Assembly: GCA_020002185.1 (NCBI GenBank)
Contig: CM034533.1
Coordinates: 67,864,119-67,928,118, forward strand
Length of the DNA: 64,000 nucleotides
Origin: Paraescarpia echinospica
Lineage: Eukaryota; Annelida; Polychaeta; Sabellida; Siboglinidae
Direction of reading: 5' to 3'
Positions 17,974 through 58,554 of this stretch are shown here, in pieces; the stretch's first letter is position 1, and every line of letters begins with the position of its first letter. The notes under the pieces were generated by a model. It saw only the letters and a program-made list of their open reading frames with translations, made no database searches and had not been told where the DNA came from. Made by a program: the position numbers and the translations under genes.

Positions 17974-18140
17974 ACTTGGGTGCACCCAAGTGGTGAGTGG
18001 ACTGCACACAAGATGGCACTGTGGACGCAGGTGCAGCAGTTGACAGGGGATGCGATGCGACAGATGCAGTCGGTGTACGGCGTCCACTTCCCCATTGAAG
18101 TACGACACTTCTTCGCACAGTGGATCGAGGGCCAGAGATG
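17974..18140 (+). CDS. STAT5: STAT5-like exon 1 (start codon at 18013)
   Basis: The exon opens after a pyrimidine-rich acceptor (tgtttttcttcag) and carries 39 bases of 5' untranslated sequence before the ATG at 18013. An upstream non-coding first exon, and hence the promoter, must lie further 5' and was not identified. The coding part gives residues 1-43, starting [19 protein letters not shown], followed by [14 protein letters not shown], the expected start of the STAT N-terminal domain. Translation starts at the position where vertebrate STAT5 starts. The donor is tg|gtaggt, phase 2, splitting the Trp codon. Confidence 0.93.
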
Positions 18141-18427: not shown

Positions 18428-21400
18428 CACGCATGCATATTCATTTACACACACCCTCCCTAAGACACACAGACACCCTCCCTAACATTTACACATGCAC
18501 GCACACACGCATGCACGCATACACACACACGCGCTGTACTAAGACACAGGTTGTACTAAAACAATATTTATTGTCATATGTACCAGGTTGCCTTGAAGAA
18601 ACAACATCTAATTTGTAATTAATTCATTCGGTGTAACAAGGACGTGATTATGAATTAAAGTCCTACCAATGAGATACCTGTTTGTTTGGCACTTCTCAAG
18701 CTTGCAACATTATAGAATTGCTTTTTAACACATAGTTCTATTAAAGTTAACTCAGTTCAGCGTTTATCCATTCACTGATTGCCATTTCAAGACTGAATAA
18801 AACAATATTAAAGTGAGGTAATTGGTATTTTGAATAATCCCTGTCTGGATTATAACAACTATTCTCTGTTTACCAGATTGTCAAAAATAAATTATAATTC
18901 ATTCATTCATTTATTCATTCATTAATTCATTCAAATAAACCCTATCCTCCCCATATTCAGACATCATATGCATGGGTAGCATTTGTAACTCGCAAGGAAA
19001 CACTGCCAAGAATAATAAACACTATTACTTTGTGATTACTCGTTGTTTGCTACCTTTGTCATTGTGTTGTCGTTGTATCACACAAGTGTGTTGTATTTCA
19101 GTAGTTGTGCACCTGGGAAGTGATGTGAGTGAGTTGAATGTCTTCTTGGTGTCACACTTGTTCATTCACTAATTACATAATCTCAGTTAATTTCCTTTTA
19201 TTCCTCTCTAACGATTATGTTTGTGTTCCCTTTTAATTAATTTAGTTAGTGTCAAATTATAATGTTGTAATTCATTATTCTCTTTTGTTTGTTATCTTTG
19301 TTTATCAAAGTTAAGAATTGTATTTATTTTTGAATGTGTCTGTCAGAACTGCTGCGATTACAATTCTGGAATTGGAACTGAAGGCTGATTCCGGAATCAG
19401 TCAGTGTGAAAATAGAGGAATTGGTTTTGGTGGAATCAGAATTGGAATTGTTTACTGGACATTATATTGCCGTGACCTTTGCCCCCAGGTCGGAGATCGA
19501 TGAGGATAACCCAGAGCATGAGAAGTTTGCGCTGCAGCTGCGGGACCAACTGCTGCAGATGATGGAGGACCGCGCCCAGGAGCTCAGCTCTGATGACATG
19601 TTCCTTACTAAACTTAAATTACAGGAGACGGTGCAACAGTTCAAGGTAAGGACAGAGAGAGAGGGAAGTAGGGAGGGAGAGAGGGGGGAGGGAGAGAGGG
19701 AGAGAGAGGGAGGGAGGGAGAAAGAGAGAGAGCGAGAGAGAACGAGGGAGAGAGAGAGAGAGAGAGAGAGTGAGTGAGAGCGAGAGAGAGAGAGTGAGAG
19801 AGAGTGAGAGAGAGTGAGAAAGTGAGTGAGAGTGCGAGAGAGTGAGAGTGAGAGAGAGATAGAGAGTGAGAGAAAGAGAGTGAGAGAGAGTGCGAGAGAG
19901 TGAGAGAGAGAGAGCGAGAGCGTGAGAGTGAGAGTGAGAGAGAGTGAGAGAGTGAGAGCGAGAGAACGAGGGAAAGAGAGAGAGAGTGAGTGAGAGCGAG
20001 AGAGAGAGAGTGAGAGAGAGTGAGAAAGAGATAGAGAGAGCGAGAGAGGGAGAGGGCGAGGGCGAGCGAGGGCGCGAGAGAGAGAGAGAGCGAGAGAGAG
20101 AGAGAGCGAGAGAGAGAGAGAGCGAGAGAGTGAGAGCGAGAGAGAGAGAGAGAGAGTGAGAGCAAGAGAGAGTGAGAGAGACCAGGTGCAACAGTTGAAG
20201 GTAAGGATGTGAACGATCAAGATAAATTTGTATATTTATTTAGTAATGGTAGTACAATCGGTAAAACAGCAACCATCCTACACAAAACATTACACATTAG
20301 ATTACACAATACAACCAAATAATAGCATGTATTTATTAAATAAATTATCACTGTTTTTATTTGTACATTTATGTTTTTATAACTCTGAGTGGTGCTTGTA
20401 TACAATTGTACGTAATGTATTTATTTGTTTTGTATTTTAATGCCTGTATACAGCTGTACATGAAGTGAGACTAATAAAATACTACTATTACTACAATATG
20501 TACTCTCGTCACACTCACCTAGAAATTCCATGAAATTTATTTTTGGTTCTTTATTCCTGGTATTAAAAGTTTACATTAATATTTCTGTTCATTGCTGCTT
20601 TCCATATGTCTTTACAGCCGGTTTTATTCATCTTCATTTCTTCAGCTGTTGATCTCCTCCAGTTGTTTTTGGGTCCACCTGGGTTTTTTTTCTTTGGGTT
20701 GCAGTGTATAGTTTATGTAGCAACACTTGAGCTTTCCTTTCACCAACTTAACCCAAATGTAGATGTCACAAACATTTCGCAGTCAAAATTTTGAATTGTT
20801 GGATTAATTAAATGCAGTTTGGTGGGCAGTATACCAAAAACATTTATTCTAGTGTTAAGAAAATTATATCAAAATGAGAACCAGACAGCCTTGGTTTAAA
20901 GGGAAGCCGTCTGTTCCTGTACCCTGAATTAGCCCGTGTAGTAATTTGTAACAGGAAGTCTGCTGTGTTGAACACGGGAAAATGGGAAATTGTTGAACAT
21001 CAAAGGGTATTGTGGTTAACTCTGCCCGCCTCAGTATTATTGCTAATAAAGCTTGTTTTGAAACTCTATATTTTGTTTACTATTTGAACATGCTGCAGGG
21101 CATATCATCCAAATTGTAAACGTTGTTAAACAATTTGGTGGACAGTATACCCTTTGAGAAGACAGGGGAAGGACTCGGTGCTGTTAGGTCTGTAGCTGAA
21201 GGAGGGAGAAGACAGGGGAAGGACTCGGTGCTGTTAGGTCTGTAGCTGAGGGAGAGAGAAGACGGGGGAAGGACTCGGTGCTGTTAGGTCTGTAGCTGAG
21301 GGAGAGAGAAGACGGGGGAAGGACTCGGTGCTGTCAGGTCTGTAGCTGAGGGAGAGAGCAGACAGGGGAAGGACTCGGTGCTGTCAGGTCTGTAGCTGAA

Positions 21401-24400
21401 GGAGAGAGCAGACAGGGGAAGGACTCGGTGCTTTCAGGTCTGTAGCTGAGGGAGAGAGAAGACGGGGGAAGGACTCGGTGCTGTCAGGTCTGTAGCTGAA
21501 GGAGAGAGCAGACAGGGGAAGGACTCGGTGCTGTCAGGTCTGTAGCTGAGGGATAGAGAAGACGGGGGAAGGACTCGGTGCTGTTAGGTCTGTAGCTGAG
21601 GGAGAGAAAAGACGGGGGAAGGACTCGGTGCTGTCAGGTCTGTAGCTGAAGGAGAGAACGGACAGGGGAAGGACTCGGTGCTGTCAGGTCTGTAGCTGAA
21701 GGAGAGAGCAGACAGGGGAAGGACTCGGTGCTTTCGGGTCTGTAGCTGAGGGAGAGAGAAGACGGGGGAAGGACTCGGTGCTGCTAGATCTGTATATATG
21801 GGAGAGAGAAGACGGGGGAAGGACTCAGTGGTGTCAGGTCTGTATCTATGGGAGAGAGAAGACGGGGGAAGGACTCGGTGCTGTTAGGTCTGTATCTATG
21901 GGAGAGAGAAGACGGGGGAAGGACTCAGTGCTGTTAGGTCTGTATCTATGGGAGAGAGAAGACGGGGGAAGGACTCGATGCTGTTAGGTCTGTATCTATG
22001 GGAGAGAGAAGACGGAGGAAGGACTCGGTGCTGTTAGGTCTGTATCTATGGAAGAGAGAAGACGGGGGAAGGACTCAGTGGTGTCAGGTCTGTAGCTGAG
22101 GGAGAGAGAAGACGGGGGAAGGACTCAGTGCTGTAGGTCTGTATCTATGGGAGATAGAAGATGGGGGAAGGACTCGGTGCTGTTAGGTCTGTATCTATCG
22201 GAGAGAGAAGACGGGGGAAGGACTCAGTGCTGTTAGGTCTGCAGTGATTCCAGGAAGTCTCCACACTTCTCGCCAGAGTCAGCATTTCCTGTGTAACATC
22301 GGTTGCTAGGTGATTAGTGTCAGCTATTTCACATAACTGTTGTTATGCAAAGGTGTCCCATTGACATGGAGAATCCACTCTAACTTATTCCCAGTCTTAT
22401 TTCCATATCTGGCCAGTTTGAGCCATTTTGAATGTTCTGGCAGATAGAGTTTGTAAGCTGTATCTTCTGTGTGGTGATGTCAAAACTATTATTTAAAATC
22501 TGACCCTCTTTTCGTATAGACTTAATACATTAAAATTTTGTTAAGATAGGACAAGTAGTTTTTAAGATACGACAGTTATTTAAAACATGACACGCACCTT
22601 GTGAAGGTATGGAGCCAAGTAAGGATATTGAAAATACATGTTTTAATTCTAAAAATATATATTTCACAAGGAGTGCCTCCTTAATCACTCAGTGTCACCA
22701 GTATGCAGAAGGCATTGTTGTGATTAGAGGAAGTGTATTTCATTACTTTCACAGAATGACCAATCAGTGTTCGGTAGCATGTTTCTCTGCTGGTGTCCCC
22801 CAGGTGGTCGGGTTGGGGCAAAGCGATTCATCAGTCTCTCAACAGGTTTGTGTTTGTTGTCCGCAACTCGTCGACTCACCTGTTGCCAGGTAAACAACTT
22901 TCATTTGTCTGTCTTTTCAGCTGATTCACGGCTTCCAAAGATGGGGCCCCTTTGAGGCTGTAGATCCAGTGGATCCACAGAAAACTGTTTTAGAATGGCA
23001 GTGCAGGGGGTTTGGTTAGCTGTTGATTCCTTCTTGTGACTGTCTATATCAGTATTATGACAGCCAAACGATTAATGTCCTATGAACACATCACATCAGT
23101 CTGTGCTAGTGCAAGTAAGACATCCCTCATGGGGTCAGTATGGCACAGAGTGATGGTTTCTATCTGCAGTGGTCGGAGCTGGTTCCCTGTTGGGCGGGAG
23201 ATGTGTGAGAGAGGCACTGAGCAGGCTGGCGATGGGATGCTGTGGGGCGTAGTGGTTGACGTGGTTAGCATGCTAGACTGTCGTTTGGGGAAACCGGGGT
23301 TCGAATCCTGGTGCTGGCCGGATGGTCGTTCGTTACTGGTTCACTTTCCATGTCAAAACTTGGGTAGTTTCATTCACCTTACTTCGCCCGTGTCTTTCAG
23401 AAGAGACTCTAAGATGTTGGTTCCTTCTATCTGGTGACTATGTCAGGGGAAAAACCTGTCATGGACTCAATGAGCAGAGGTCTCATTCTCAGAAAAAGAG
23501 AATCATCAACAAAATGCTGCTGGTCATGTCATGGGAAGAAGAAGTAAGACTACAGTGTTGTCTTTGACTCCGAACATGGGTCTATAGCAGTGTATAGACA
23601 GTGGTAGCACAGTTTGGGAACCTGTGATGTCAGCAGAGAGTACTGTGCTTGCTACTCAAGCACACAGATGCCTGTAAACCTTGTAGAACTCTGTGCAACC
23701 CTGTACAACAATATACAACCCTCCATGACCAGTGATACACATCATACAACCCTACTACAATTGTGTACAATAATATACAATAGTGTATGGTTTCCAAGCA
23801 AATCTTTCAAGTCAACAATATTTTATCCAGTTGCATGTTTCAGCGCAGATGTTTTATTGTGTCTGTCTGATGACACTTCGTGCAGTTGCAGCAAATTTCC
23901 GGAAAACAATTTTTTTTTACACGTCACTGACGATGATACGAATAACTTCGTGGATTCTATGAACAAAACCTGCCTGTGCATATGAATAACATTTGCATGA
24001 AAATAAGCATGTTTGCATTAATATTTTTTTTAATGGAAAATAAGTGAGATTTATATGTTGATGCATGAGATTGATGCTAAATGCATAAGTCTCACTCAAA
24101 ATGCTTGGTAGCTATGCAACTAGACTGCAACATCCCTGCAAACTGTCACGTCAGCTGGGCACTTCCTTTAGGAACACGTCACCAGCGTTAAACTGTGATG
24201 TTGCCGTGACAAATTTGTAAGTGAGTGTGAAGGAAATGAAGAGTGCGTATCACGTGTAGCCACTCACAGTGTGGACAGCTTCCTCTTCTTACGGTCTCTT
24301 TATCTCAGTTCTAAGTTTCACCTCTCATGAACAACACATCAGATGGGGTTTGTATGCGATCGACGTTATTATTACACAGCTTGATGATGATGGTTTTGAT

Positions 24401-27400
24401 CAGTTTATTATTTACTACAAAGATTTTCTACAAAGATTTTCAACACATCCCTTGATAATGACTAGTGTTTGTTGTGGTGACCGTCTGTGCAATTGTCCAT
24501 CAGTTTGAGCATCCGACTGTCAATCAAGAGCATTGGGGTTTAAGACTGTTGTTGCCATTTTCGAAGCTTGGGCAGTTTCGTTCATCCAACATTGCTCCAG
24601 TTGACTCTACCTTTCCAGCTTCGATCGTCTAGTTCTGATTTACTTTTTCTTCCTAGAGTCAATTCTAATATTGGAACTACCGGGTAGTGCATTTTGTTGC
24701 TGCGTCAACTCTCAGGAATATGCTCCCTCTTAGTGTTAGATCAGTTGAAAATATTACACAATTTCGTCGGCTTTTAAAAACTTACCTCTATAACTTTGCG
24801 TATCCACTTTAGCTCCCTGGCGTATCAATCCATCTGTTGACAACTTTAATATGGCTTATCAATTCTGATATTGACTAATGCTTTTGTATTGATGCACCTC
24901 TGAGCTTGGTTTCCAAGGATTTAGGCACAACAGAAGTTACCTTATTATTATTATTATTCACTAATTGGCTGTTCATGTTGGTAGAATCATATGTAAGACT
25001 AGTCCGTGTCCAGCATCTGCTGCGTAGTTCAAGTTGGCTGGTGTTACAAGGAACAGGTCTATCAGGCATGGAGTGAGAGGCACTTTGAACAGTCTTTGAT
25101 GAGATAGGCAGTATAAGTGACATTACCTTGTCTTCCAGGAGATGTAAGCAGTCTTTGATGACATAGTGCACAGTATAAGTGACTTTACCTTGTCTTCCAG
25201 GAGATGTAAACAGTTTTTGATAAGATAGTGCACAGTATAAGTGACTTTACCTTGTCTTCCAGGAGATGTAAGCAGGCTTTGATGAGGTAGTGTGCAGTAT
25301 AAGTGAATTTACCCTGTCTTTCTGGAGATGTAAGCAGTCTTTGCCCTGTCTTTCTAGTGATGTAAGCAGTCATTGATGAGATAGTGCGCACTATAAGTGA
25401 CTTTACCCTGTCTTTCTGGAGATGTAAGCAGTCCTTGATGAGATAGTGCGCAGTATAAGTGACTTTACCCTGTCTTTCTGGAGATGTAAGCAGTCATTGA
25501 TGAGATAGCGTGCACTATAAGTGACTTTACCCTGTCTTTCTGGAGATGTAAGCAGTCATTGATGACATAATGCGCAGTACAACTGACTTTACCCTGTCTT
25601 CCAAGAGATGTAAGCAGTCCTTGATGAGATAGTGCGCAGTATAAGTGACTTTACCCAGTCTTTCTGGAGATGTAAGCAGTCATTGATGAGATAATGCGCA
25701 GTATAAGTGACTTTACCCAGTCTTTCTGGAGATGTAAGCAGTCCTTGATGAGATAGTGCGCAGTATAAGTGACTTTACCCAGTCTTTCTGGAGATGTAAG
25801 CAGTCATTGATGAGATAGTGCGCAGTATAAGTGACTTTACCCAGTCTTTCTGGAGATGTAAGCAGTCCTTGATGAGATAATGCGCAGTATAAGTGACTTT
25901 ACCCAGTCTTTCTGGAGATGTAAGCAGTCCTTGATGAGATAGTGTGCAGTATAAGTGACTTTACCCAGTCTTTCTGGAGATGTAAGCAGTCCTTGATGAG
26001 ATAGTGCGCAGTATAAGTGACTTTACCCAGTCTTTCTGGAGATGTAAGCAGTCCTTGATGAGATAGTGCGCAGTATAAGTGACTTTACCCAGTCTTTCTT
26101 GAGATGTAAGCAGTCATTGATGAGATAATGCGCAGTACAACTGACTTTACCCTGTCTTCCAAGAGATGTAATCAGTCCTTGATGAGATAGTGCGCAGTAT
26201 AAGTGACTTTACCCAGTCTTTCTGGAGATGTAAGCAGTCATTGATGAGATAATGCGCAGTATAAGTGACTTTACCCTGTCTTCCAAGAGATGTAAGCAGT
26301 CCTTGATGAGATAGTGCGCAGTATAAGTGACTTTACCCAGTCTTTCTGGAGATGTAAGCAGTCATTGATGAGATAATGCGCAGTACAACTGACTTTACCC
26401 TGTCTTCCAAGAGATGTAAGCAGTCATTGATGAGATAATGCGCAGTACAACTGACTTTACCCTGTCTTCCAAGAGATGTAAGCAGTCCTTGATGAGATAG
26501 TGCGCAGTATAAGTGACTTTACCCAGTCTTTCTGGAGATGTAAGCAGTCCTTGATGAGATAGTGCGCAGTATAAGTGACTTTACCCAGTCTTTCTGGAGA
26601 TGTAAGCAGTCCTTGATGAGATAGTGCGCAGTATAAGTGACTTTACCCAGTCTTTCTGGAGATGTAAGCAGTAAGCAGTCATTGATGAGATATTGATGCG
26701 CAGTACAACTGACTTTACCCTGTCTTCCAAGAGATGTAAGCAGTCCTTGATGAGATAGTGCGCAGTATAAGTGACTTTACCCAGTCTTTCTGGAGATGTA
26801 AGCAGTCATTGATGAGATAATGCGCAGTACAACTGACTTTACCCTGTCTTCCAAGAGATGTAAGCAGTCCTTGATGAGATAGTGCGCAGTATAAGTGACT
26901 TTACCCAGTCTTTCTGGAGATGTAAGCAGTCATTGATGAGATAATGCGCAGTATAAGTGACTTTACCCTGTCTTCCAAGAGATGTAAGCAGTCCTTGATG
27001 AGATAGTGCGCAGTATAAGTGACTTTACCCAGTCTTTCTGGAGATGTAAGCAGTCCTTGATGAGATAGTGCGCAGTATAAGTGACTTTACCCAGTCTTTC
27101 TGGAGATGTAAGCAGTCATTGATGATATAATGCGCAGTACAACTGATTTTACCCTGTCTTCCAAGAGATGTAAGCAGTCCTTGATGAGATAGTGCGCAGT
27201 ATAAGTGACTTTACCCTGTCTTTCTGGAGACGTAAGCAGTCATTGATGAGATAATGCGCAGTACAACTGACTTTACCCTGTCTTCCAAGAGATGTAAGCA
27301 GTCCTTGATGAGATAGTGCGCATTATAAGTGACTTTACCCAGTCTTTCTGGAGATGTAAGCAGTCATTGATGAGATAATGCGCAGTACAACTGACTTTAC

Positions 27401-48400: not shown

Positions 48401-51400
48401 GACAGCTGTCAGTCACTTTTATGAACATGGTATGTGTCACCAGGCTAACTGACAGCTGTCAGTCACTTTCAGGAACATGGTATGTGTCACCAGGCCAAGA
48501 CAGCTGTCAGTCACTTTTATGAACATGGTATGTGTCACCAGGCTAACTGACAACTGTCAGTCACTTTCAGGAACATGGTATGTGTCACCAGGCCAAGACA
48601 GCTGTCAGCCACTTTTATGAACATGGTATGTGTCACCAGGCTAACTGACAGCTGTCGGTCACTTCAGGAACATGGTATGTGTCACCAGGCTAAAATAGCT
48701 GTCAATCACTTTTAGGAACATGGTATATGTCACCAGGCTAAGACAAATTGTGAAAATAACAGGTGATAAATGTGTGTTTTGTTAACTAATGTGCCTGCCA
48801 GTATTTGTTAGTGTACAACTGCACATGTATTGGTCGTCAGTTTGGGTGCCTTCTCTGCAGGCTCTCAAGAGGATTCGGCGGGCAGAAAAGAAAGGAAACG
48901 AGGTGAGTAGATCACCACATGAAACAACACCCAAGTCCTGGAGGGATATCAATGTAGTCATTATAAACTTACCACAACAGATAAATATCAACAAATGAAT
49001 AGAAAATAATTATATTAAAAAGCAATGTTTTAAAGTAGTCTATGACTTGATAGTATTAACATAAACGTGTATATGTTTGACAACATCAGATGTTGCCAAA
49101 ACAGTAAAATGACATATGAGAGAGTTGAGCAGTTTGACCAGTGTGTGATGAGGTTGTGTGTTGTTAACAGACGGTGACAGAGGAGAAGTTCTCGGTGCTC
49201 TTCCAGAGTCAGTTCACAGTTGGAGGGGGAGAGCTGGTCTTCCAAGTGTGGGTGAGTGGGTCAGGGGGAGAGCTGGTCTTCCAAGTGTGGGTGAGTTGGT
49301 CAGGGGGAGAGTTGGTCTTCCAAGAGTGGGTGAGTGGGTCAGGGGGAGAGCTGGTCTTCCAAGTGTGGGTGAGTGGGTCAAGGGGAGAGTTGGTCTTCCA
49401 AGAGTGGGTGAGTGGGTCAAGGGGAGAGCTGGTCTTCCAAGTGTGGGTGAGTGGGTCAGGGGGAGAGTTGGTCTTCCAAGAGTGGGTGAGTGGGTCATGG
49501 GGAGAGCTGGTCTTCCAAGTGTGGGTGAGTGGGTCAAGGGGAGAGCTGGTCTTCCAAGTGTGGGGGAATGGGCCACAAACAAAGTGTTTAGTAGTTGGCA
49601 GGTTCATTTATCTGTCTGAATCATCAGCGGCTCGAAGGGAGCTTTCGGCACCTCACAGTGCCTTCATCAGCATTATACCAAATCACTCTCAGTCGTCATT
49701 TGCCATTGTTGGTGATCACCATTTTACAGCAGTTCCAAGAATATTGTGGGATGATTGTAGCCAGTGCTGGTCGCCTCTCTTCGATCTCAATGGATTTGCT
49801 GGTCTATCTTTGCCAGAAGTTGTTCTCTCTGGTGAGCACTGTGGCATATCTGGCCATGATGTTATGGCCTTTGTTCATTCAGTGTTCCCCTGAGTTCAAT
49901 ATAATGCTGATGAAGACAATGTGAGAGTACTGAAAGCTCCATTCGAGCCACTGAGGATTCATACAGGTAAATTATGAATCTGACTGAATGCTGTTTAGTA
50001 GCTGTTTAAATATACACAATCATTGTGTTGTGGGGCATGGTAATGTAGTGTTTAGAACATCAAACTTTGAATCGAGAGAACCGGGGTACAAATCCTGTTG
50101 CTGCCATTTTGCTCACTCCTCGTGGCTCTAGTTCACTCAGCTGTATAAATGAGTACCTGGTTATAGACAGTGGCAGATATAAAAGAATAAACGGTCTTCA
50201 TGCAGTAATTGCAGAGTAGTTGAACTGGAATTAGTGTTTGTATGGACAGGTTCGCCAGAGGGTGAAGTGTGAATCACTGAGTGTCTTATAGACTTGATAC
50301 CATGCTATAAGAACGTACCTATGTCTTTTTTGTATGTCTTGTAGACTTTGTCGCTACCGGTGGTTGTCACAGTGCATGGCAACCAGGAGTGCAATGCCAT
50401 GGCAACAGTGCTGTGGGACAATGCCTTCGCTGAGCCCGTATGTACCTCACTCTTATGGCATAGCTCTATCTAGAGACCCGTCCACCTGTCTTTTGGATGG
50501 GCTCGTTCATTATGAACAGGTGGAAATTTGAGCTGAGGGGCTAAAAATATTTGATTATATATTATTGACTCTCACTGTTATTTATGTCCATTATGCTTTA
50601 AAAATCTGCATCACATTTGTGTAGGCATGTATTATTGTTTACATATGTATTTATGTATATTCATGCGTGTTTGGACTGAATTGTGTATGCGTGCAGACAT
50701 GTGTGTCTACCAGGACATTTTTGGACAGATCAAAATTTGACACTGCATTAAGGCCCCTGATACTTGGAGTGGGTTAAATGACCTTTGTTTTGTAACAAAC
50801 ATTTTGATGACAGTCAATTGTTTATAGAGCCTGCAGGAATGTGTATCCTAGCCTCGTTCTTCAAAGAAAAAAAGCTTGTTTATGCTTGTAATCCATTCAG
50901 ATGGTTTCAACCCATGAAAGCGAAGTTGAAGAAAGAAGAACAAACACTACAAGAGCATGACACAGTATATTATCTTTCAAAAGAGTTTCTTCTGCATGGT
51001 TTACATGCGAAGATAAGTAAAATGTCACACACAGGGAGATGGGGGAAAACCGTTGTGGACCCACACAGCCTATCATCTGTGTGTGTAAAAAAGACAGATT
51101 AGCAGCTAAAAAACCTTGCTTTGATAATGGAATAAGTGTGATGGGCATTTTGTCTAGGCGGCCACTGGAGCTACGACACTTGTTATTATAGTCGCACAAT
51201 AAGCTGCGTAGGTAACTAGTAGCTAACACAAATCACTAATGTTGAACAGGTGTGTGATAAACATACTTAAAGACATCATTACTAATGCTTGTTTCAGGGT
51301 CGTATTCCTTTCCATGTTCCCGACAAAGTGACATGGCCGCATCTGGCTCAGGCTCTCAACACAAAATTTGCTGCAAACGCTGGATATGGCCTGTCTCCAG

Positions 51401-54400
51401 ACAACATCAACTACCTGGCCTACAAACTCTTCGGTGAGTTACAAGTAGATCTCTCAAAAGCTAAATTTCATTTTATTTCTTGTGTATGAACTAAGAAACT
51501 GTTGGTAGGTGTCATTTGCCACAATCTTGCAAAATACATCAGGATTGGTGTAACTATCAGTACGTTGAAATTATTAAAAATGTATCAGATGCTTTGATGT
51601 ATAGCGCAAATATAAGGCTTCATTTGTAAACTTTATAGGATGCATTGAGAGTTAATCTTTATTTTTATAATAAACGTACCGTATGTGTTCTGGTCTTCAA
51701 TCTGCAGCTCAGGCATGTAACGCACCTGAGCTAACTGCTTCACCACCATGTCTCTCTAATATCAAATATTACATCGATGTGTACACAGCAAAGTAAGTAA
51801 ACTTGTCAAATGTCCACACTATCCCAAGTTGTCCATTTGCAATGGGTGATGGGAAATTTAACCGTATCAGAGAAACAGCATTCACCCCTGAATCCATCTC
51901 AATAATTACTATTATTTTAATTGTCTACCAGTATGCTATTATATTTTTTTATAATTTATTTATTAATATTCTGTATATTTATTTATTCAATTTAATTATA
52001 TATGCACTCTTCAGTACCATAATACTTTTATAGTCTTAGGTTTGCTTAGTACAGATTTGTTTAATGAAGTTTTAGCAAAGTTATATTTTATAACTCACAT
52101 TTATAATAGCTGTGTGAATCTTTATGTAAGTCCCAGCATTTTATTGTCATCACCCTTGAACAGAGTTTCTCTGGATATGAGTTTTAAGATAAAGTATATT
52201 ATTATCATGTGTTTGAAATAGAAGACTGGTGATTTCTTAATACTGGGAGAAAACCTCATTAACCATAATTTTAAAACAAAAAGAGGAAGACAATGGAAGA
52301 AGTTGAATGGCCTATTCCAACGTCACAATGGTCTTCACTGTTAACAGGAGAGCAGTGTGCTGTCAATATGACAAGATGGAGGGGTGTAACATCCTGGACA
52401 GCGACGGGTCAGCTTGGAAAACATCTAGAATAACTGGGGAAGAGTGAATGAACTTGTTCATGAGCAGTGTGTAAATTGTTGTATGATGACTGATTGTCTC
52501 CCGTGTGTTTGTAGGACAGAGTGACGACTACGCTGTACAGATGGTCACGTGGGCTCAGTTCAACAGGGTAGGTCACTTATACGTGGCCGAGAACATTCTA
52601 GATTTATTTTCTTGACACAATTGTCATATTTGTGTATAAGTCAGTTTTTACATTGCTGTTTTGTGTTGAATTTCAGTTACTTGACAATGCAGATTTCTGC
52701 AATAGGATATTTTATGCAGGTTGAACATAATATTAACAATCAATTATTTTTATACTGCATTTTCTTGCTAGTTCAAAGCATGTTTCCTAAAAAGGATAGA
52801 ATAAAAAATAGGTGAATTCGTATGGTTGTGTCGATTTTTAAAACATCCCACTGTTTTATATGGGAAAGATAACTGCTTTTGATGTGGCAGTGAAGGAAAA
52901 TAGAGGTTTGTTGAGGCATTAAAATTGTGTGTATCTGATCAAATGAAGATCCGACAGCTGAGAAATGCTCTTTCAATTTGGGATAAGTTTTAGCTTTGTT
53001 TTCTGCCACCAGGAGCCACTGCCAGGCCGCAACTTCACATTCTGGGAATGGTTCTACGCAATTCTCAAACTGACCAAAGACTGGCTGCACGGGCCATGGA
53101 AGGAGAGGTAGGGGGCCTCTTTCCGGGGGGTGGGGCACTTTCAAGGGGGCCTCTTCCAGGGTACCTCTTTTAGAGGGATAAGGTAGTTTGACTCCACAGG
53201 CCATGGAAGGAGAGGTAGGGGCCTCTCATGGGGTCCTTTCAATCTTAACCATACTTTTATGATTTTGTTTTATTGTGTAATTGTACTCTAGGTGGTCCTC
53301 GACAATAGCCTCTAGGTGTTTCCTGAGGATCTCCTGAATTGCATGTGTTGTCTACTGATTGTGTCATGTAAGATGTTGTATACTATATGTGTGACCAAAT
53401 AAATGTTGTTCTAAGGTTGTCTGACTCCACAGGCCATGGAAGGGAGGAAGGGGGCCTCTCATGGGGCAAGGTTATCTCGTACAACCTAATATGACTAGGA
53501 TTCTGGGAAATTTAGTTGACTTAGTTTGTTGTAAATTTATTATTTTATTTGCAGCTGTATACTAATTGTATAAAACTTTAATAGTAAAACTCGAGACCAA
53601 TTAATTTACTCATTGTAAGCAAGAATTTGTTGTAAACGAATTCATTATATCCAAGATTTACAGTATTCCTATGGAATTTTTTTGATTTCTGTTTCTACGA
53701 CGCTGTTGTTTTGGTTCAGACTCATCCATGGTTTTGTGAGCAAGCAGCAGGCTCAGGAGTGGCTGATGGGGCGACCAAGCGGAACCTTCCTGCTACGCTT
53801 CAGTGACTCCGAGATAGGGGGTATCACCATCGCCTGGGTGGCCGAGGACCCAAACAAGCCAGGTAAGGTCATGGTCGATTCATCCCGTGAACTTTGACTT
53901 GGATAACATTTTCCTGCTAAGTTGTGAGATATAAATTGTAAGTTTGCCGGTGACAAAAAGTTAGTGTTATGGTTGAAATAGTTACTTTATTGGTCAGTGA
54001 AGAAGTTTTTTGAATGAAAGTTTCTGACGTATTTGGAGTTGTGTTCTGAGATGAAAACACATGGGTAATCTAAACATACAATAGTCAAAGGCAACTGCAG
54101 CAGAAAATATCTGTTCTAACAATGCTCTTGTAGACATGGCACCCATTATCTGTTTTATTATATACTGGTTCTCTGCATTGCCACCAGGGGAGCTGCAGGT
54201 GTGGAATCTGGCGCCGTTTACAGACAAAGACTTCCGTATCCGCGGCATCGGGGACCGTATCAAAGACCTGCAGAACCTTGTGTACTTGTACCCTGACATA
54301 CCCAAGGCGCATGCCTTCAGCAAGTTCTGGACTCAGACCTCCGACATGGGCAGTATCAGCGGCGGGGGTTATGTCAAACCGGACCTCACTACTGTCATAC

Positions 54401-54404
54401 CAGG
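18013..54404 (+). CDS. STAT5: STAT5-like transcription factor gene, 18 coding exons, 3' end missing
   Basis: Signal transducer and activator of transcription: a latent cytoplasmic factor phosphorylated by JAK-type kinases, which dimerises through SH2-phosphotyrosine contacts and binds DNA in the nucleus. Seen: 18 exons with GT-AG junctions and matching phases join to 2,114 coding bases (704 codons plus 2). Domains by exon: N-terminal interaction domain about residues 1-125 (exons 1-3), coiled coil about 130-327 (exons 4-8), DNA-binding domain about 328-490 (exons 9-13), linker about 491-584 (exons 14-16), SH2 about 585-690 (exons 17-18, with FLLRFSDSE and Arg611) and the tyrosine site GYVKP with Tyr694. 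Diagnostic STAT5 blocks include [37 protein letters not shown] and [10 protein letters not shown]. Vertebrate STAT5 is about 790 residues, so the transactivation tail and stop are missing; no matching exon was found up to base 64,000. Assignment to STAT5 rather than another STAT is confident; orthology is inferred from memory of the family. Confidence 0.95.
18141..19488. other. Intron 1
   Basis: Starts with degenerate gggtcactgag repeats (18165-18250), followed by the CA run and unique AT-rich sequence. No additional exon is recognised; the STAT reading continues directly from exon 1 to exon 2 within a Trp codon. Confidence 0.8.
18345..18427. repeat. (CA)n microsatellite
   Basis: About 40 uninterrupted CA dinucleotides inside intron 1, followed by looser CA-rich sequence to about 18530. 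Confidence 0.98.
19489..19645 (+). CDS. STAT5: STAT5-like exon 2 (N-terminal domain)
   Basis: Acceptor gcccccag|g completes the Trp codon and is followed by [20 protein letters not shown] and then [18 protein letters not shown], residues 43-95. It matches the second half of the STAT N-terminal helical domain. The exon ends in phase 0 at aag|gtaagg, and a purine-only GA tract starts a few bases into the intron. An inexact copy of the exon end plus its donor recurs at 20186-20208. Confidence 0.93.
19646..20208. repeat. GA-rich purine array bounded by a copy of the exon 2 donor
   Basis: The intron begins gtaaggacagagagag and continues as pure purine (ga/gagt words) for about 530 bases. At its far end, ggtgcaacagttgaag|gtaagga (20186-20208) repeats the exon 2 end ggtgcaacagttcaag|gtaagga (19630-19652) with one mismatch. 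The structure fits a tandem duplication of the junction whose GA-containing spacer later expanded. Confidence 0.9.
20209..21140. other. Intron 2, unique part plus dispersed repeat
   Basis: AT-rich sequence without exons. From about 20905 to 21160 it is similar to 40020-40285: shared words include ggaagtctgctgtgttga, ttgttttgaaact, tttactatttgaacatgct and ggacagtat. This is an interspersed element of about 250 bases; class unknown. Confidence 0.65.
21150..22245. repeat. 50-bp minisatellite, about 22 copies
   Basis: Units of 50 bases contain ggagagagaagacgggggaa, ggactcggtgctgttaggtc and tgtagctgag or tgtatctatg. Two variants form consecutive blocks: tgtagctgag in the first half, mostly tgtatctatg after about 21785. 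I see no relation to exon 2 or exon 3. Confidence 0.95.
22246..23240. other. Intron 2, unique sequence
   Basis: No exon is needed here because exon 2 and exon 3 join in phase. Pieces such as tttgtctgtcttttcag at 22904-22920 resemble an acceptor but lead into sequence with no STAT similarity. Confidence 0.5.
23243..23500 (+). mobile_element. tRNA-headed SINE, second family
   Basis: The head has an A-box-like tagtggttgacgtgg and a canonical B box ggttcgaatcc followed by a non-tRNA body. The anticodon arm is not properly closed, so I read it as a SINE head and not a functional tRNA gene. Confidence 0.65.
23501..24528. other. Intron 2, unique sequence
   Basis: Local tacaa-rich words near 23690-23790; no exon, RNA gene or paired transposon ends recognised. 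Confidence 0.4.
24529..24962 (+). mobile_element. SINE fragment followed by LINE 3' end
   Basis: 24529-24612 resembles the SINE body (gggcagtttcgttcatccaac, cattgctccagttgactc). From 24618 the sequence matches the 3' end of the LINE also seen at 13405-15570 and, more distantly, 34200-34562, ending in ttaggcacaacagaagttacc and (TTA)n. Confidence 0.75.
25092..32395. repeat. 62-bp minisatellite, about 118 copies, ending in the exon 3 acceptor
   Basis: Units repeat every 62 bases: gatgtaagcagtccttgatg, agatagtgcgcagtataagt, gactttacccagtctttctg, ga. A second variant has aatgcgcagtacaactgac and ccctgtcttccaa; the two alternate in higher-order blocks. The last unit runs directly into the real acceptor (ctttaccttgtcttccag) and the first eight bases of exon 3 (gagatgta), so the unit was founded on this splice junction. 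Only about four other units keep the intact cttccagga (near 25135, 25197, 25259 and 32115 in my reading); most carry ccaagag or tctggag. Confidence 0.96.
32396..32485 (+). CDS. STAT5: STAT5-like exon 3
   Basis: Thirty codons, residues 96-125: [18 protein letters not shown], then [12 protein letters not shown]. It aligns with the vertebrate STAT5 segment that has a Pro-Met-x-Leu-Val-Arg core. The acceptor cttgtcttccag is the last unit of the 7.3-kb minisatellite upstream; the exon's first eight bases (gagatgta) are also part of the repeat unit. The donor is acc|gtaagt, phase 0. Confidence 0.9.
32486..33700. other. Intron 3, unique part
   Basis: AT-rich, no exon seen. At about 33545-33700 a loose repeat of ttttccatttcaaa words precedes the LINE remnant. 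Confidence 0.45.
33700..34565 (+). pseudogene. Decayed CR1-like LINE reverse transcriptase C-terminus
   Basis: Conceptual translation gives [63 protein letters not shown] and LRQLHWLPV, the standard C-terminal blocks of a CR1/Jockey-group polymerase. A frame break follows near 34132. Bases 34255-34400 then give [13 protein letters not shown] in another frame. The element ends with ggatttaggcgctatagaag and (TTA)n, typical of the family. 5'-truncated, inside STAT intron 3. Confidence 0.9.
34566..35512. other. Intron 3, distal part
   Basis: Unique sequence with a TG-rich imperfect duplication just before exon 4 (tgcatgtatgggctagtgtg twice near 35403-35455). No exon seen. Confidence 0.5.
35513..35590 (+). 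CDS. STAT5: STAT5-like exon 4 (start of coiled coil)
   Basis: Twenty-six codons, residues 126-151: [18 protein letters not shown], then EYLQRCTQ. This corresponds to the short variable linker and first helix of the STAT coiled coil. The acceptor is ttaccactacag and the donor cag|gtatga, phase 0. A purine-only repeat array starts at the donor itself. The shortness and low similarity make it the least certain exon, but phases and position fit exactly. Confidence 0.85.
35591..36790. repeat. Purine-rich array of about 30-bp units starting at the exon 4 donor
   Basis: The intron starts gtatgagggacggggtgggg, and units of the form gcataagagggaaggggtgg-ggtgagaggg follow for 1.2 kb; some internal units begin gtatgaggg or gtaagaggg like the donor itself (near 36290 and 36316). 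The + strand is almost all purine apart from the ca/ta of each unit and carries many G runs. Proline-rich frames on the other strand are artefacts. Confidence 0.9.
36850..36931 (+). CDS. STAT5: STAT5-like exon 5 (coiled coil)
   Basis: Residues 152-178: [18 protein letters not shown], then QYQENLKIN, plus one base. The FIIQYQE block is strongly conserved in STAT5. The acceptor is ttgtctgcag and the donor aacg|gtacgt (phase 1). Confidence 0.93.
36932..37430. other. Intron 5
   Basis: AT-rich with loosely repeated caagtttgt-attttcaaa words (about 37215-37430), the last of which supplies the pyrimidine-rich acceptor tgtattttcag of exon 6. No other exon is needed. Confidence 0.6.
37431..37564 (+). 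CDS. STAT5: STAT5-like exon 6 (coiled coil)
   Basis: Residues 179-223, beginning [20 protein letters not shown] and ending with [11 protein letters not shown]: a glutamine-rich amphipathic helix of the coiled coil. The acceptor is tgtattttcag. The donor gtgggt at 37565 is required because the next exon must start in phase 0; a nearby gtaatg at 37569 would break the frame. Confidence 0.9.
37565..38661. other. Intron 6, with a SINE fragment
   Basis: AT-rich; 38330-38430 (cactcacagcactttacata, ttccctggcaggtcttctc) resembles the reversed SINE body at 13905-14035. Near 37905-37960 aataataataataaaacttt starts a further interspersed repeat piece. Confidence 0.5.
38662..38813 (+). CDS. STAT5: STAT5-like exon 7 (coiled coil)
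   Basis: Residues 224-274: [20 protein letters not shown], then [19 protein letters not shown] and [10 protein letters not shown]. It matches the STAT5 LDDELIQWKRRQQLAGN-type segment. The acceptor is tctgttgcctag and the donor tg|gtaggt (phase 2, splitting a Trp codon). The intron that follows (38814-45507) consists mostly of two tandem arrays. Confidence 0.94.
39020..40010. repeat. 37-bp minisatellite with higher-order pattern, about 28 copies
   Basis: Units of the type gtgcatgcattaaaggtact plus ctgatgtgtgtacaata, interspersed with a variant aaggaactctgatgtgtct plus aaaatagtggaagc every third to fourth unit. No similarity to exons 7 or 8. Confidence 0.94.
40020..40330. repeat. Dispersed repeat, second copy
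   Basis: Similar over about 250 bases to 20905-21160, including ggaagtctgctgtgttga and tttactatttgaacatgctc. Both copies sit next to a tandem array (before one, after the other). Confidence 0.7.
40388..45507. repeat. 39-41-bp minisatellite, over 100 copies, ending in the exon 8 acceptor
   Basis: Units such as gtgtgagtcactgtcattaa plus cctactgtctgtgtgtgtcag run 5.1 kb into the real acceptor and exon 8 start (gtgtgtcag|gtgtgagtcg). Upstream units are mostly 39 bp with tctgtttgtcag, while units from about 42200 onward are mostly 41 bp with tctgtgtgtgtcag. A degraded patch lies at 44455-44740. Nearly every unit keeps CAG immediately followed by GTGTGAG, so each holds an acceptor-like and a donor-like site back to back. 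Confidence 0.97.
45508..45669 (+). CDS. STAT5: STAT5-like exon 8 (end of coiled coil)
   Basis: Completes Trp274, then [20 protein letters not shown] and [18 protein letters not shown], ending [10 protein letters not shown], residues 274-327. The exon starts gtgtgagtcg, and this start together with the preceding gtgtgtcag acceptor is the core of the 5.1-kb upstream array, so the real acceptor is the last of more than a hundred near-identical ones. The donor is ag|gtacag, phase 2. Confidence 0.93.
45670..46160. other. Intron 8
   Basis: Unique AT-rich sequence between exon 8 and exon 9; nothing recognised. The phases of the flanking exons join exactly (ag plus t). Confidence 0.7.
46161..46295 (+). 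CDS. STAT5: STAT5-like exon 9 (DNA-binding domain)
   Basis: Residues 328-372: [19 protein letters not shown], then [19 protein letters not shown] and TVKASII. This is the most STAT5-like block of the gene. The acceptor is ttttgctgcag and the donor ag|gtaggg, phase 2. The last 52 bases plus the donor are repeated about 23 times in the intron. Confidence 0.96.
46296..47670. repeat. About 58-bp minisatellite made of the exon 9 end plus donor, about 23 copies
   Basis: Each unit is gtaggg plus ggtcgtctcaacgtacacat, gaatcctcccactgtcaagg and cttctatcatcag: the last 52 bases of exon 9 and its donor. The exon contains ggtcgggggtcg at the unit start and the intron begins ggtagggggtcg, so a short homology at the two ends could explain the first duplication. 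The donor (catcag|gtaggg) is intact in most units; a few have ctaggtag, cagttag or cacgtag. Confidence 0.97.
47671..48003. other. Intron 9, distal part
   Basis: Unique AT-rich sequence up to the exon 10 acceptor; nothing else seen. Confidence 0.6.
48004..48139 (+). CDS. STAT5: STAT5-like exon 10 (DNA-binding domain)
   Basis: Residues 373-418: [20 protein letters not shown], then [18 protein letters not shown] and LSVTFRNM. It matches STAT5 from the SEQQAKSLL-type helix to the FRNM strand. The acceptor is cattgtttcag and the donor atg|gtatgt, phase 0. About the last 43 bases plus seven intron bases form the unit of the array that follows. Confidence 0.95.
48140..48745. repeat. 48/50-bp minisatellite made of the exon 10 end plus donor, 13 donors
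   Basis: Units are gtatgtgtcaccaggccaag plus acagctgtcagtcactttta and tgaacatg (48 bp), or a 50-bp form with ggctaactgaca. They are copies of about the last 43 bases of exon 10 plus its first seven intron bases. The gtatgtg donor recurs at 48140, 48188, 48236 and so on to about 48723 (there gtatatg). The first four repeats are in frame with exon 10 and stop-free. Confidence 0.96.
48861..48902 (+). CDS. STAT5: STAT5-like exon 11 (DNA-binding domain, 14 codons)
   Basis: [14 protein letters not shown], residues 419-432: the conserved basic SLKRIKRADRR-type segment of STAT5. The acceptor is ttctctgcag and the donor gag|gtgagt, phase 0. Confidence 0.92.
48903..49170. other. Intron 11
   Basis: Short unique intron, no features noticed. 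Confidence 0.6.
49171..49251 (+). CDS. STAT5: STAT5-like exon 12 (DNA-binding domain)
   Basis: [20 protein letters not shown], then ELVFQVW, residues 433-459. The acceptor is ttgttaacag and the donor tgg|gtgagt, phase 0. The final 24-27 bases plus donor are repeated in tandem with a 39-bp period in the intron; the array stays in frame and lacks stops. Confidence 0.94.
49252..49575. repeat. 39-bp in-frame minisatellite made of the exon 12 end plus donor, 8 repeats
   Basis: Unit: gtgagtgggtcaggg plus ggagagctggtcttccaagt and gtgg, variant caagagtgg. The gtgagt donor lies at 49252, 49291, 49330, 49369, 49408, 49447, 49486 and 49525; the last copy has lost it (gtgggggaat). The period is 13 codons, and the frame of exon 12 stays open through the whole array, reading [13 protein letters not shown] repeats. 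Confidence 0.97.
49576..50029. other. Intron 12, unique part
   Basis: The open frame from exon 12 and the array continues to 49893 through this stretch, without recognised similarity. No other feature seen. Confidence 0.5.
50030..50322 (+). mobile_element. tRNA-headed SINE, copy B
   Basis: Same family as 17600-17945: A-box-like aatgtagtgtttagaac, B-box-like ggtacaaatcc, body gtataaatgagtacctggtt-atagac, tail gctataagaacgtacc. It ends 22 bases before the exon 13 acceptor at 50344. Confidence 0.8.
50345..50437 (+). CDS. STAT5: STAT5-like exon 13 (DNA-binding domain)
   Basis: [20 protein letters not shown], then [11 protein letters not shown], residues 460-490. It matches the STAT5 [12 protein letters not shown] and [12 protein letters not shown] strands. 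The acceptor is tcttgtag (TAG type) and lies shortly after the 3' end of a SINE; the donor is ccc|gtatgt, phase 0. Confidence 0.95.
50438..51297. other. Intron 13
   Basis: An open frame at 50785-51102 has no recognised domain. TG-rich patch near 50640-50710. No additional exon required by phase. Confidence 0.5.
51298..51433 (+). CDS. STAT5: STAT5-like exon 14 (linker domain)
   Basis: [20 protein letters not shown], then [20 protein letters not shown] and AYKLF plus one base, residues 491-535. It matches the STAT linker, including VPDKVxWPxLxxALNxKF. The acceptor is cttgtttcag and the donor ttcg|gtgagt, phase 1. Confidence 0.95.
51434..52514. other. Intron 14
   Basis: AT-rich unique sequence; nothing recognised. 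Confidence 0.5.
52515..52567 (+). CDS. STAT5: STAT5-like exon 15 (linker domain)
   Basis: [18 protein letters not shown], residues 536-553, ending with the conserved VSWxQFNR-type motif. The acceptor is tgtttgtag and the donor agg|gtaggt, phase 0. Confidence 0.93.
52568..53012. other. Intron 15
   Basis: AT-rich unique sequence with a pyrimidine-rich end before the exon 16 acceptor; nothing else seen. Confidence 0.5.
53013..53107 (+). CDS. STAT5: STAT5-like exon 16 (linker domain)
   Basis: [20 protein letters not shown], then [11 protein letters not shown], residues 554-584. It matches ENLPGxNxTFWQWFDG of vertebrate STAT5. The acceptor is tctgccaccag and the donor ag|gtaggg, phase 2. Inexact copies of the exon end recur at about 53190 and 53422. 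Confidence 0.93.
53108..53475. repeat. Partial duplications of the exon 16 end plus donor
   Basis: The exon 16 end ggccatggaaggagag|gtagggg recurs at 53199-53221 (preceded by gactccaca) and, with changes, at 53431-53453 (ggccatggaagggaggaagg). Around them ggggcctctc-type words repeat. This looks like an early or decayed junction duplication, not a full array. Confidence 0.85.
53720..53862 (+). CDS. STAT5: STAT5-like exon 17 (SH2 domain)
   Basis: [20 protein letters not shown], then [20 protein letters not shown], residues 585-632. It holds the SH2 core; Arg611 of FLLRFSDSE is the residue expected to contact phosphotyrosine. The acceptor is ttttggttcag and the donor ccag|gtaagg, phase 1. No defect is visible in the binding pocket. 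Confidence 0.97.
53863..54187. other. Intron 17
   Basis: Unique intron, no repeat seen. Confidence 0.6.
54188..54404 (+). CDS. STAT5: STAT5-like exon 18 (end of SH2, activating tyrosine)
   Basis: [40 protein letters not shown], then [14 protein letters not shown], residues 633-704 plus two bases. By my count the Tyr of GYVKP is residue 694, the number of the activating tyrosine in human STAT5A. The acceptor is attgccaccag and the donor gg|gtgagt, phase 2. The last 38 bases plus donor are repeated about 24 times in the intron. Confidence 0.96.
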
Positions 54405-55985
54405 GTGAGTGTCATTTTATGTCAATGTCAGTGGTTATGTCACATCTGACCTCACTACTGTCATACCAGGGTGAGTGTCATTGTTATGTCAATGTCAGTG
54501 GTTATGTCACATCTTACCTCACTACTGTCATACCAGGGTGAGTGTCATTGTTATGTCAGTGGTTATGTCACATCTGACCTCACTACTGTCATACCAGGGT
54601 GAGTGTCATTGTTATGTCAGTGGTTATGTCACATCTGACCTCACTACTGTCATACCAGGGTGAGTGTCATTGTTATGTCAATGTCAGTGGTTATGTCACA
54701 TCTGACCTCACTATTGTCATACCAGGGTGAGTGTCATTGTTATGTCAGTGGTTATGTCACATCTGACCTCACTACTGTCATACCAGGGTGAGTGTCATTG
54801 TTATGTCAATGTCAGAGGTTATGTCACATCTGACCTCACTACTGTCATACCAGGGTGAGTGTCATTGTTATGTCAATGTCAGTGGTTATGTCACATCTGA
54901 CCTCACTACTGTCATACCAGGGTGAGTGTCAGCCCAGGCCAATGCCAGTGGTTATATGGCCAAGACTCCAACCATCACTACTGTCATATACCCAGGCGGA
55001 GTGTCATTGTTATGTCAGTGGTTATGTTCACATCTGACCTCACTACCGTCATACCAGGGTGAGTGTCATTGTTATGTCAGTGGTTATGTCACATCTGACC
55101 TCACTACTGTCATACCAGGGTGAGTGTCATTGTTATGTCAATGTCAGTGGTTATGTCACATCTGACCTCACTACTGTCATACCAGGGTGAGTGTCATTGT
55201 TATGTCAATGTCAGTGGTTATGTCACATCTGACCTCACTACTGTCATACCAGGGTGAGTGTCATTGTTATGTCAATGTCAGTGGTTATGTCACATCTGAC
55301 CTCACTACTGTCATACCAGGGTGAGTGTCGTTGTTATGTCAATGTCAGTGGTTATGTCACATCTGACCTCACTACTGTCATACCAGGGTGAGTGTCATTG
55401 TTATGTCAATGTCAGTGGTTATGTCACATCTGACCTCACTACTGTCATACCAGGGTGAGTGCCACAGCAATAATGTCAGTGGGTTATGTCGGGCATCTGG
55501 ACTTCACTACTGTCACTGGTACCAGGGTGGAGTGCCACAGCAGCCAGTGGTTATGTCACATCTGCCCTCACTACTGTCATACCAGGGTGAGTGTCATTGT
55601 TATGTCAATGTCAGTGGTTATGTCACATCTGACCTCACTACTGTCATACCAGGGTGAGTGTCATTGTTATGTCAATGTCAGTGGTTATGTCACATCTGAC
55701 CTCACTACTGTCATACCAGGGTGAGTGTCATTGTTATGTCAGTGGTTATGTCACATCTGACCTCACTACTGTCATACCAGGGTGAGTGTCATTGTTATGT
55801 CAGTGGTTATGTCACATCTGACCTCACTACTGTCATACCAGGGTGAGTGTCATTGTTATGTCAATGTCAGTGGTTATGTCACATCTGACCTCACTACTGT
55901 CATACCAGGGTGAGTGTCATTGTTATGTCAATGTCAGTGGTTATGTCACATCTGACCTCACTACTGTCATACCAGGGTGAGTGTG
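54405..55985. repeat. 61-67-bp minisatellite made of the exon 18 end plus donor, about 24 copies
   Basis: Units: gtgagtgtcattgttatgtc plus (aatgtc)agtggttatgtcac, atctgacctcactactgtca and taccagg. The second half copies the last 38 bases of exon 18, including the codon for Tyr694, with the KP codons changed to TS codons. The donor ccagg|gtgagt is intact in nearly every unit (altered near 54998 and 55527). Two odd units near 54930-54990 and 55456-55550 are more diverged. Confidence 0.97.
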
Positions 55986-56350: not shown

Positions 56351-56787
56351 ATTAAAACTGTTCTAAAATGCCTTGCGAAACAAGTACATCTTTAACTGTC
56401 TTTTGAATACATCCGTCGATGGAGCCTGACGAATGGATAGGGGTATCTTGTTCCACAGTGTGGGTGCAGCCACAGAGAGGGCCCTGTTCCCCAGTTGCGT
56501 CTTTGACATGGATACAGCCAGCAGCAACCTGCTCTCAGACCGAAGTGATCTTCTCGGATTGTGCTGCACCAGCATCTCTTTGATGTAGGGTGGGCCTTCG
56601 TCATGGACTGCCTTGTAGGTCAGTGTGAGCAATTTGAATTGCACACGATACCTCACAGGCAGCCAATGCAATGAGCGAAGAACTGGCGTAATGTGAGACC
56701 GTCTAGAGAAACGGGAAACAATGCACGCGGCTGTGTTCTGCACTCGTTGTAACTTGGCCAGCTGCCATGCGGGGAGGCCATGCAGCA

Positions 56788-57262
56788 ATCCATTCAAGTA
56801 GTCCAGTGTTGACGTGACGAGGGTGTGGGTGGCTATCTGGGCCAAGGCCATGCAGTAATCCATTCAAGTAGTCCAGTGTTGACGTGACGAGGGTGTGGGT
56901 GGCTATCTGGGCCAAGGCCATGCAGTAATCCATTCAAGTAGTCCAGTGTTGACGTGACGAGGGTGTGGGTGGCTATCTGGGCCAAGGCCATGCAGCAATC
57001 CATTCAAGTAGTCCAGTGTTGACGTGACGAGGGTGTGGGTGGCTATCTGGGCCAAGGCCATGCAGCAATCCATTCAAGTAGTCCAGTGTTGACGTGACGA
57101 GGGTGTGGGTGGCTATCTGGGCCAAGGCCATGCAGCAATCCATTCAAGTAGTCCAGTGTTGACGTGACGAGGGTGTGGGTGGCTATCTGGGCCAAGGCCA
57201 TGCAGTAATCCATTCAAGTAGTCCAGTGTTGACGTGACGAGGGCGTGGGTGGCTATCTGGGC
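56788..57262. repeat. 70-bp minisatellite inside the LINE, about 7 copies
   Basis: gggtgtgggtggctatctgg plus gccaaggccatgcagtaatc, cattcaagtagtccagtgtt and gacgtgacga repeats every 70 bases. It is LINE polymerase sequence (LVTSTLDYLNGLLHGL on the minus strand). Because 70 is not a multiple of three, the frame shifts with each copy. Confidence 0.96.
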
Positions 57263-57532
57263 CATACTCACAGCTAGATATTTTCGGATCTTCCCGATTT
57301 TCCAGAGATGGTAGTAAGTTGACCCACACACCATGTTGACATGTGCCTGCAGTCCATAGTTGAAATTAATAATTGCATCAATATTCCTTCAGTATTGCCG
57401 GGATGATGCTCTCCTCAATGGAGATGTCTGTTAGTTCCAACCACAAGAAACTCCGTTTTGTTGTCATTCAGTTTTAGGAAGTCCCAAGTCATCCAGATCT
57501 TGACCTTGGCGACGCACTTCTCCATAGCATCC

Positions 57533-58218: not shown

Positions 58219-58554
58219 GGGTTAAAGGTGAGCAGCAGTTGGCTGTCATCTGCGTACAGGTGAAACTCAATGTTGTGTCAGCGCATGATATCCCCCAGCG
58301 GTAGGGTGAAGACACAAAACAGTATAGAGCCCTGGGATACTCCAAAGTCCAGATGCTGACAGTTGGATGATGCCTCATGGATGAGAACTGACTGCTTTCT
58401 GTTGGTTAGTTACGACCTGAACCATGAGAGGGCTGTCCCACAGATGCCCAGTCTAGTATGCAATCTGGCGAGGAGCACTGAATGGTCCACTGTATCGAAC
58501 GCTGCGGACATGTCGAGTAGCACTAGGAGAACACATTTCTTGCTGTCCATGGCG

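Follow-up and report, generated by a model that had tools for sequence, protein, structure and literature searches.

Why do the minisatellites in the introns of a single gene begin, at one junction after another, on the edges of that gene's own exons? The question is raised by a STAT gene of the tubeworm Paraescarpia echinospica that lies in a 64,000-nucleotide stretch of contig CM034533.1 (assembly GCA_020002185.1, positions 67,864,119 to 67,928,118, forward strand), called here the window. A preliminary description of this DNA had proposed that the arrays are seeded on splice junctions, either because junctions are favoured sites or because arrays overlapping them are favoured survivors. We consider, with a probability of about 0.8, that the STAT junction arrays are of the kind called "mirages" in amphioxus, the product of ordinary tandem expansion, tolerated since the exon-proximal splice site would still be used. 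An additional excess of arrays at junctions is suggested, and it is mild.

Repeat arrays on the exon edges of a STAT gene

Large minisatellites were taken as arrays found by Tandem Repeats Finder (TRF) with a period of at least 20 bp and at least 5 copies, from exon 1 to position 55985, a GA tract being excluded. Nine such arrays lie in this interval and together make up 52% of it. In six of the nine, the repeat includes exon bases up to and across a junction. The plus-strand arrays concerned, delimited by TRF, are as follows.

25090..32403, plus strand: 62-bp array, about 118 copies, exon 3 acceptor side; unit made of the acceptor region and the first 8 exon bases
40394..45516, plus strand: 41-bp array, about 127 copies, exon 8 acceptor side; unit made of TTAAC, the CAG acceptor and the first 9 exon bases
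46236..47679, plus strand: 59-bp array, about 24 copies, exon 9 donor; unit made entirely of the exon 9 tail, ending at the junction (60 exon bases inside the array)
48097..48745, plus strand: 48-bp array, about 13 copies, exon 10 donor; 43 exon bases and the donor
49224..49572, plus strand: 39-bp array, about 9 copies, exon 12 donor; 28 exon bases and the donor
54367..55984, plus strand: 67-bp array, about 25 copies, exon 18 donor; 38 exon bases and the donor

The start of the exon 9 unit corresponds to the donor position; it reads GTCGGGGG in the exon and mostly GTAGGGGG in the copies. The preliminary description is borne out for these six junctions in that their units contain exon-edge bases with the splice site (8–60 exon bases lie inside the arrays), that acceptors (exons 3 and 8) and donors (exons 9, 10, 12 and 18) are both affected, and that the units, of 39–67 bp, are mutually unrelated. 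At the level of DNA, this composition establishes that the arrays were seeded on the gene's own junctions. Array copies depart from their own majority by 4–14% on average. A clear decay with distance from the exon was seen in the exon 8 array only (rho -0.42), with a weak one at exon 10 (rho -0.60, P = 0.04), and the other five of the seven arrays compared showed no clear trend.

The host gene is, as judged from its encoded protein, a STAT5-type STAT of a vestimentiferan (deep-sea) tubeworm. The best relative of the draft protein is the STAT of the vent tubeworm Ridgeia piscesae (P0001; 93% identity), in which five STAT Pfam domains are found, and its best match among solved structures is the STAT5A chain 1y1u (E = 1.2e-184, phmmer). 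Searches of genome_contigs and viral_contigs with P0001 yielded no confirmed match. The coding sequence is complete, with 20 exons and 794 amino acids, the same length as the Ridgeia protein. Eighteen coding exons are in the window, separated by introns that are all GT-AG and leaving a single open frame; exons 19 and 20, beyond the reach of the preliminary description, lie 2.7–3.6 kb past its end. Of the exons listed here, 1, 3, 4, 8, 9, 10, 12 and 18 were placed by tblastn with P0001 and GT-AG borders.

18013..18140, plus strand: coding exon 1, ATG at 18013 (open coding sequence)
32396..32485, plus strand: exon 3
35513..35590, plus strand: exon 4
45508..45669, plus strand: exon 8
46161..46295, plus strand: exon 9
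48004..48139, plus strand: exon 10
49171..49251, plus strand: exon 12
53013..53107, plus strand: exon 16
54188..54404, plus strand: exon 18
66725-66850, extended coordinates, beyond the window: exon 19
67428-67571, extended coordinates, beyond the window: exon 20, coding sequence ending at 67571

Residues ~360–375 of P0001 diverge from the other proteins compared exactly at the exon 9/10 junction, the site of an array in the window. The Ridgeia gene model may be broken there on a similar array. The STAT arrays are a warning that gene models may break at junction arrays.

Nine arrays touching an exon edge had been counted in the preliminary description, and the cases at exons 2, 4 and 16 were not retained as full junction cases. 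Exon 2 is adjoined by a GA-rich tract that begins 4 bp past the donor. The exon 4 array begins 4 bp into the intron; its unit looks like the opening of the intron with another dinucleotide in place of the donor GT, derivation from the donor being judged by eye, and the donor position reads GC in 28 of 40 copies and GT in one of 40. At exon 16, the exon end with its donor region is found twice more in intron 16 (~53192-53228 and ~53425-53460, by eye), as spaced rather than tandem copies. The exon 4 array and two arrays lying away from junctions, all three from TRF, are given here.

35595..36775, plus strand: 31-bp array, about 38 copies, starting 4 bp past the exon 4 donor
21156..22241, plus strand: 50-bp array in intron 2, away from junctions
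39028..40018, plus strand: 37-bp array in intron 7, 214 bp from exon 7, away from junctions

Seven further arrays of at least 4 copies lie in introns 18 and 19 and none of the seven contains an exon edge; two of them, additional to those known to the preliminary description, stop 11 bp before exon 19 and 23 bp before exon 20 without including the junction. Intron 18 also holds a stretch resembling a long interspersed nuclear element (56363-59840, minus strand) with four arrays (56775, 57514, 58556, 58916), and an open reading frame at 58413-58931 in it has an RVT_1 match below the Pfam cut-off. We regard tandem expansion as an ordinary process here because the exon 1–18 stretch is no denser in arrays than the remainder of the window, and because one array, 58556-58730, also sits within this reverse-transcriptase-like frame.

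These data fit a model in which a 39–67-bp segment that crosses an exon edge or stops at one would first be duplicated in tandem, and the array would then grow through the usual turnover of repeats, whether slippage or unequal exchange. The copy nearest the exon preserves both the reading frame and a splice site. Because this site would be the one used, the other copies would be spliced out with the intron and tolerated, and their presence would be selectively neutral.

How many junction arrays are expected

In the chance tests on STAT every array was reduced to a single unit, a seed was placed at random, and a junction match required at least 8 exon bases. STAT was chosen because of its pattern, and all STAT P values are those of a pre-selected gene. 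The chance that an array overlaps a junction is 7.5–9.4% under uniform seeding, close to the one in ten roughly estimated in the preliminary description, but reaches 16–18% when the seed is matched for guanine-plus-cytosine (GC) content, because exons (54% GC) are richer than introns (38% GC). For the first nine large arrays, the six observed compare with 0.73 expected under uniform seeding (P for at least six, 1.6e-5) and 1.45 with GC matching (P = 6e-4); inclusion of the GA tract (6/10) gives 3e-5 and 2e-3, respectively. When all 19 TRF loci of period at least 10 are taken, 1.08 are expected (P = 4e-4), or 2.03 with GC matching (P = 7e-3). Up to the window end, P is 5e-4 for 6 of 25 loci (GC-matched, 0.011) and 6e-5 for 6 of 14 large arrays (GC-matched, 3e-3). 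Over the whole gene, in a test that took the end of exon 19 one base too long, 6 of 16 arrays give 1e-4 under uniform seeding and 5e-3 with GC matching (1.82 expected), and when arrays are confined to their own intron P is 1e-4 for the first nine and 5e-4 for all 16. Across nulls and array lists, P spans 3e-6 to 0.011. In a per-site BLAST count of edges against introns (minimum length 22), matches came from 5 of 31 edges, compared with 93 of 1813 intron probes and 11 of 192 probes from exon interiors. The count was not relied on because of its noise: the low-complexity filter removed 4 of 35 edges, and exons 8 and 12 gave no signal.

These values suggest a mild excess at junctions, part of which GC-rich seeds and the array density of the region can explain. 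Two explanations bear on this excess only, and both are compatible with the arrays being mirages. The first, to which we give somewhat less than an even chance, is coincidence: arrays are dense in this region, and with many windows read such a case would come to notice. With a threshold of period at least 20 and at least 4 copies, and with densities expressed relative to array-free DNA, the window reaches 0.61 arrays per kb (46% of its bases are inside arrays) and 50 kb of flanks have 0.48, against 0.11 in six stretches sampled at round-number coordinates, about five times less than the STAT region, and 0.13 in 42 merged regions around exons of the SLC6 family. Within the window, the stretch from exon 1 to exon 18 (0.49 per kb) and the rest, which includes intron 18 (0.54 per kb), are alike. 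Such a density accounts for the number of STAT arrays but not for their position; the GC-matched expectations of 1.45–1.82 bring the count nearer to chance, but six is above expectation under all nulls tried, and the SLC6 sample leans the same way.

The second explanation is that, genome-wide, arrays arise preferentially at junctions, or survive preferentially there, through a sequence- or transcription-linked mechanism. It gains from the low STAT P values under uniform, GC-matched and own-intron placement, but these come from a gene picked for its pattern, and the use of all TRF loci with GC matching leaves P at only 0.007–0.011. The SLC6 family (PF00209) was picked without regard to arrays. 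It gave 96 matches, from which 56 exon loci were read (the top 30, then the next by rank, except for two that lie on a short contig and one within another locus). Arrays of period at least 20 and at least 2.9 copies numbered 30 after overlapping loci were merged (34 before), and three of these 30 span an exon edge, all of them acceptors.

L052: 57 bp x 3, acceptor
L054: 47 bp x 14, acceptor
L058: 65 bp x 10, acceptor

The expectation is 0.80 under uniform seeding (P 0.044) and 0.84 with GC matching (P 0.050); for arrays of at least 4 copies the count is 2 of 19 (P 0.095 and 0.072, respectively). The three arrays, whose structure matches that seen in STAT, occupy one homologous acceptor in each of three paralogs, and they look independent because they differ in unit length and in the intron sequence that they include. 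There are 18 such acceptors (19 on recount) against 38 other exons, and this post hoc comparison gives P = 0.03 from the tally of 18. At a period of at least 10, 5 of 67 TRF loci from 50 SLC6 loci overlapped a match, three of them being the arrays above. Other candidates were rejected: at L055 the match overran the donor, L049 is a 2.4-copy, 13-bp repeat within the match, and at L067 the hidden Markov model match ran past the donor, the array itself beginning ~25 bp inside the intron. Long open frames beside SLC6 exons were not accepted as in-frame arrays either, those at L008 and L018 being largely simple CA/CT-type repeats close beside the exons; at L006 the long frame did not appear.

The neighbourhood of STAT adds a further comparison. 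The next gene downstream (minus strand, extended coordinates ~75268-92031; L034, L035) is presumably a NAB-like co-repressor gene, a name that we take from an NCD1 motif. At its 12 splice edges, as read, there is no array of at least 4 copies, a point against a preference for junctions, while a 21-bp, 2.2-copy imperfect duplication covers the donor of its second coding exon (L035, extended coordinates 91018-91064), a point in favour. A 39-bp array covers the stop codon and 3' end of its last coding exon (L034, extended coordinates 74960-75284), a coding edge and not a splice site. Human NAB2 and STAT6 are neighbours, and NAB–STAT linkage may be ancient. On balance, with a single gene family sampled, we hold a genome-wide preference for junctions to be less likely than not. 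The broader proposal, that junctions are birth hot spots of minisatellites in this lineage, with thousands of exon edges carrying arrays of themselves, arising recurrently and independently at homologous paralog junctions, lengthening introns and multiplying splice sites, appears doubtful. What became of the idea of favoured sites or survivors is thus a suggestion, which shrinks in STAT with GC matching and is borderline in SLC6.

Splice sites within the copies

Counting the true site, the splice dinucleotide is retained in most copies of five arrays: AG in 118 of 128 copies at exon 8, and GT in 22/25 at exon 9, 13/13 at exon 10, 8/9 at exon 12 and 24/25 at exon 18. At exon 3, AG is kept in only 5 of 119 copies, located near the two ends of the array, the main variants being TG (74) and AA (36). 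The multiplication of splice sites put forward in the preliminary description is thus present in the sequence of five arrays, but not in those of exons 3 and 4. It could be argued that the arrays have a role in splicing or regulation, by offering multiple sites, by retention, or by isoforms with 13-amino-acid repeats at exon 12, and the intact decoys of five arrays would agree with it. Splice-site columns, however, are not clearly better conserved than the other columns of the unit in these five arrays (circular shifts of the unit reach the observed conservation in 21/41 cases for exon 8, 14/59 for exon 9, 8/48 for exon 10, 12/39 for exon 12 and 29/67 for exon 18), and nothing therefore points to active maintenance of the decoys.

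Read-through past the donors of exons 9 and 18 meets a stop immediately, and the proximal site is therefore needed for a full-length protein. Past the exon 10 donor the frame is open for 282 nt. The stretch 49171-49893 shows the exon 12 array in frame, without stop for 639 nt past the donor; later donors in this array, if used, would add the 13-amino-acid repeats, but the Ridgeia protein lacks any insert at this exon. Given also that the sites in the exon 3 and exon 4 arrays are mostly dead, a splicing or regulatory role is very improbable. An assembly artefact is less probable still, since long tandem arrays are error-prone in general but here the copies diverge from one another, the units at different exons are unrelated, and SLC6 loci show the matching structure.

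Introns with arrays still have unique sequence and a second splice site outside the array, and among the STAT introns concerned no new intron bounded by a duplicated segment was seen. Existing introns are lengthened by the arrays, and the sequence left outside the arrays speaks against intron gain.

Some of these results pull against ordinary, tolerated expansion as a full account. Uniform or GC-matched seeding predicts too few junction arrays, both in STAT (0.73–1.45 of nine against six) and in SLC6 (three against less than one), and the loss of nearly all decoy sites in the exon 3 and exon 4 arrays could reflect selection against them; in addition, the choice of STAT for its pattern affects how its excess is to be read. 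Hot spots or retention may act alongside tolerated expansion.

Comparison with known systems

The preliminary description knew of no gene with this pattern, but the phenomenon itself is already on record. In amphioxus, minisatellite-like tandem repeats across exon–intron boundaries, the mirages, are described for Adh3, the globins BflGb6 and BflGb9, troponin C and PGBD5, on both 5' and 3' sides, with units of 10–160 bp and AG/GT in many, not all, copies (PMC3087553, PMC3902484), and they reportedly leave regular splicing undisturbed (PMC3087553). The six STAT arrays likewise cross the exon–intron boundary, the exon 9 unit itself being wholly exonic and ending at the junction; acceptors and donors are both affected, and many but not all copies keep AG/GT (mostly kept in five arrays, lost in those of exons 3 and 4). 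They differ from mirages in their annelid host, in being six in one gene and in reaching ~127 copies, compared with 6 and 3 copies in the two BflGb6 haplotypes, the case for which copy numbers were given.

Three other systems share some of these features. Human internal tandem repeats in segmental duplications are also located at exon–intron boundaries, where they alter gene structure and splicing (PMC2812944), but they concern paralogs, have units averaging 30 bp in 4 copies and come with transcript evidence, whereas the STAT arrays were read in DNA. Intron gain by tandem duplication of AG/GT-containing segments, including a potato RNA-dependent RNA polymerase gene (PMC4974935), recalls the exon 9 unit, which lies entirely in the exon and runs from GT to AG; in STAT, by contrast, existing introns are lengthened and no new one is seen. 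Earthworm metallothionein genes have minisatellites in intron 1 (PMC12783039), long arrays within introns of an annelid gene as in STAT, but in the portion available their units are not described as containing exon edges. No annelid junction array was recognised in our search of open-licence papers. The STAT arrays are thus, as far as searched, a known kind of array in a new phylum and at unusual intensity. With them, a little-known oddity of lancelet genes extends to a remote animal phylum: one gene has six cases, and SLC6 adds three. A genome-wide test of junction-seeded repeat growth becomes practical in the published tubeworm genomes, and the same genomes allow study of how the splicing machinery selects a single site where dozens are nearly identical.

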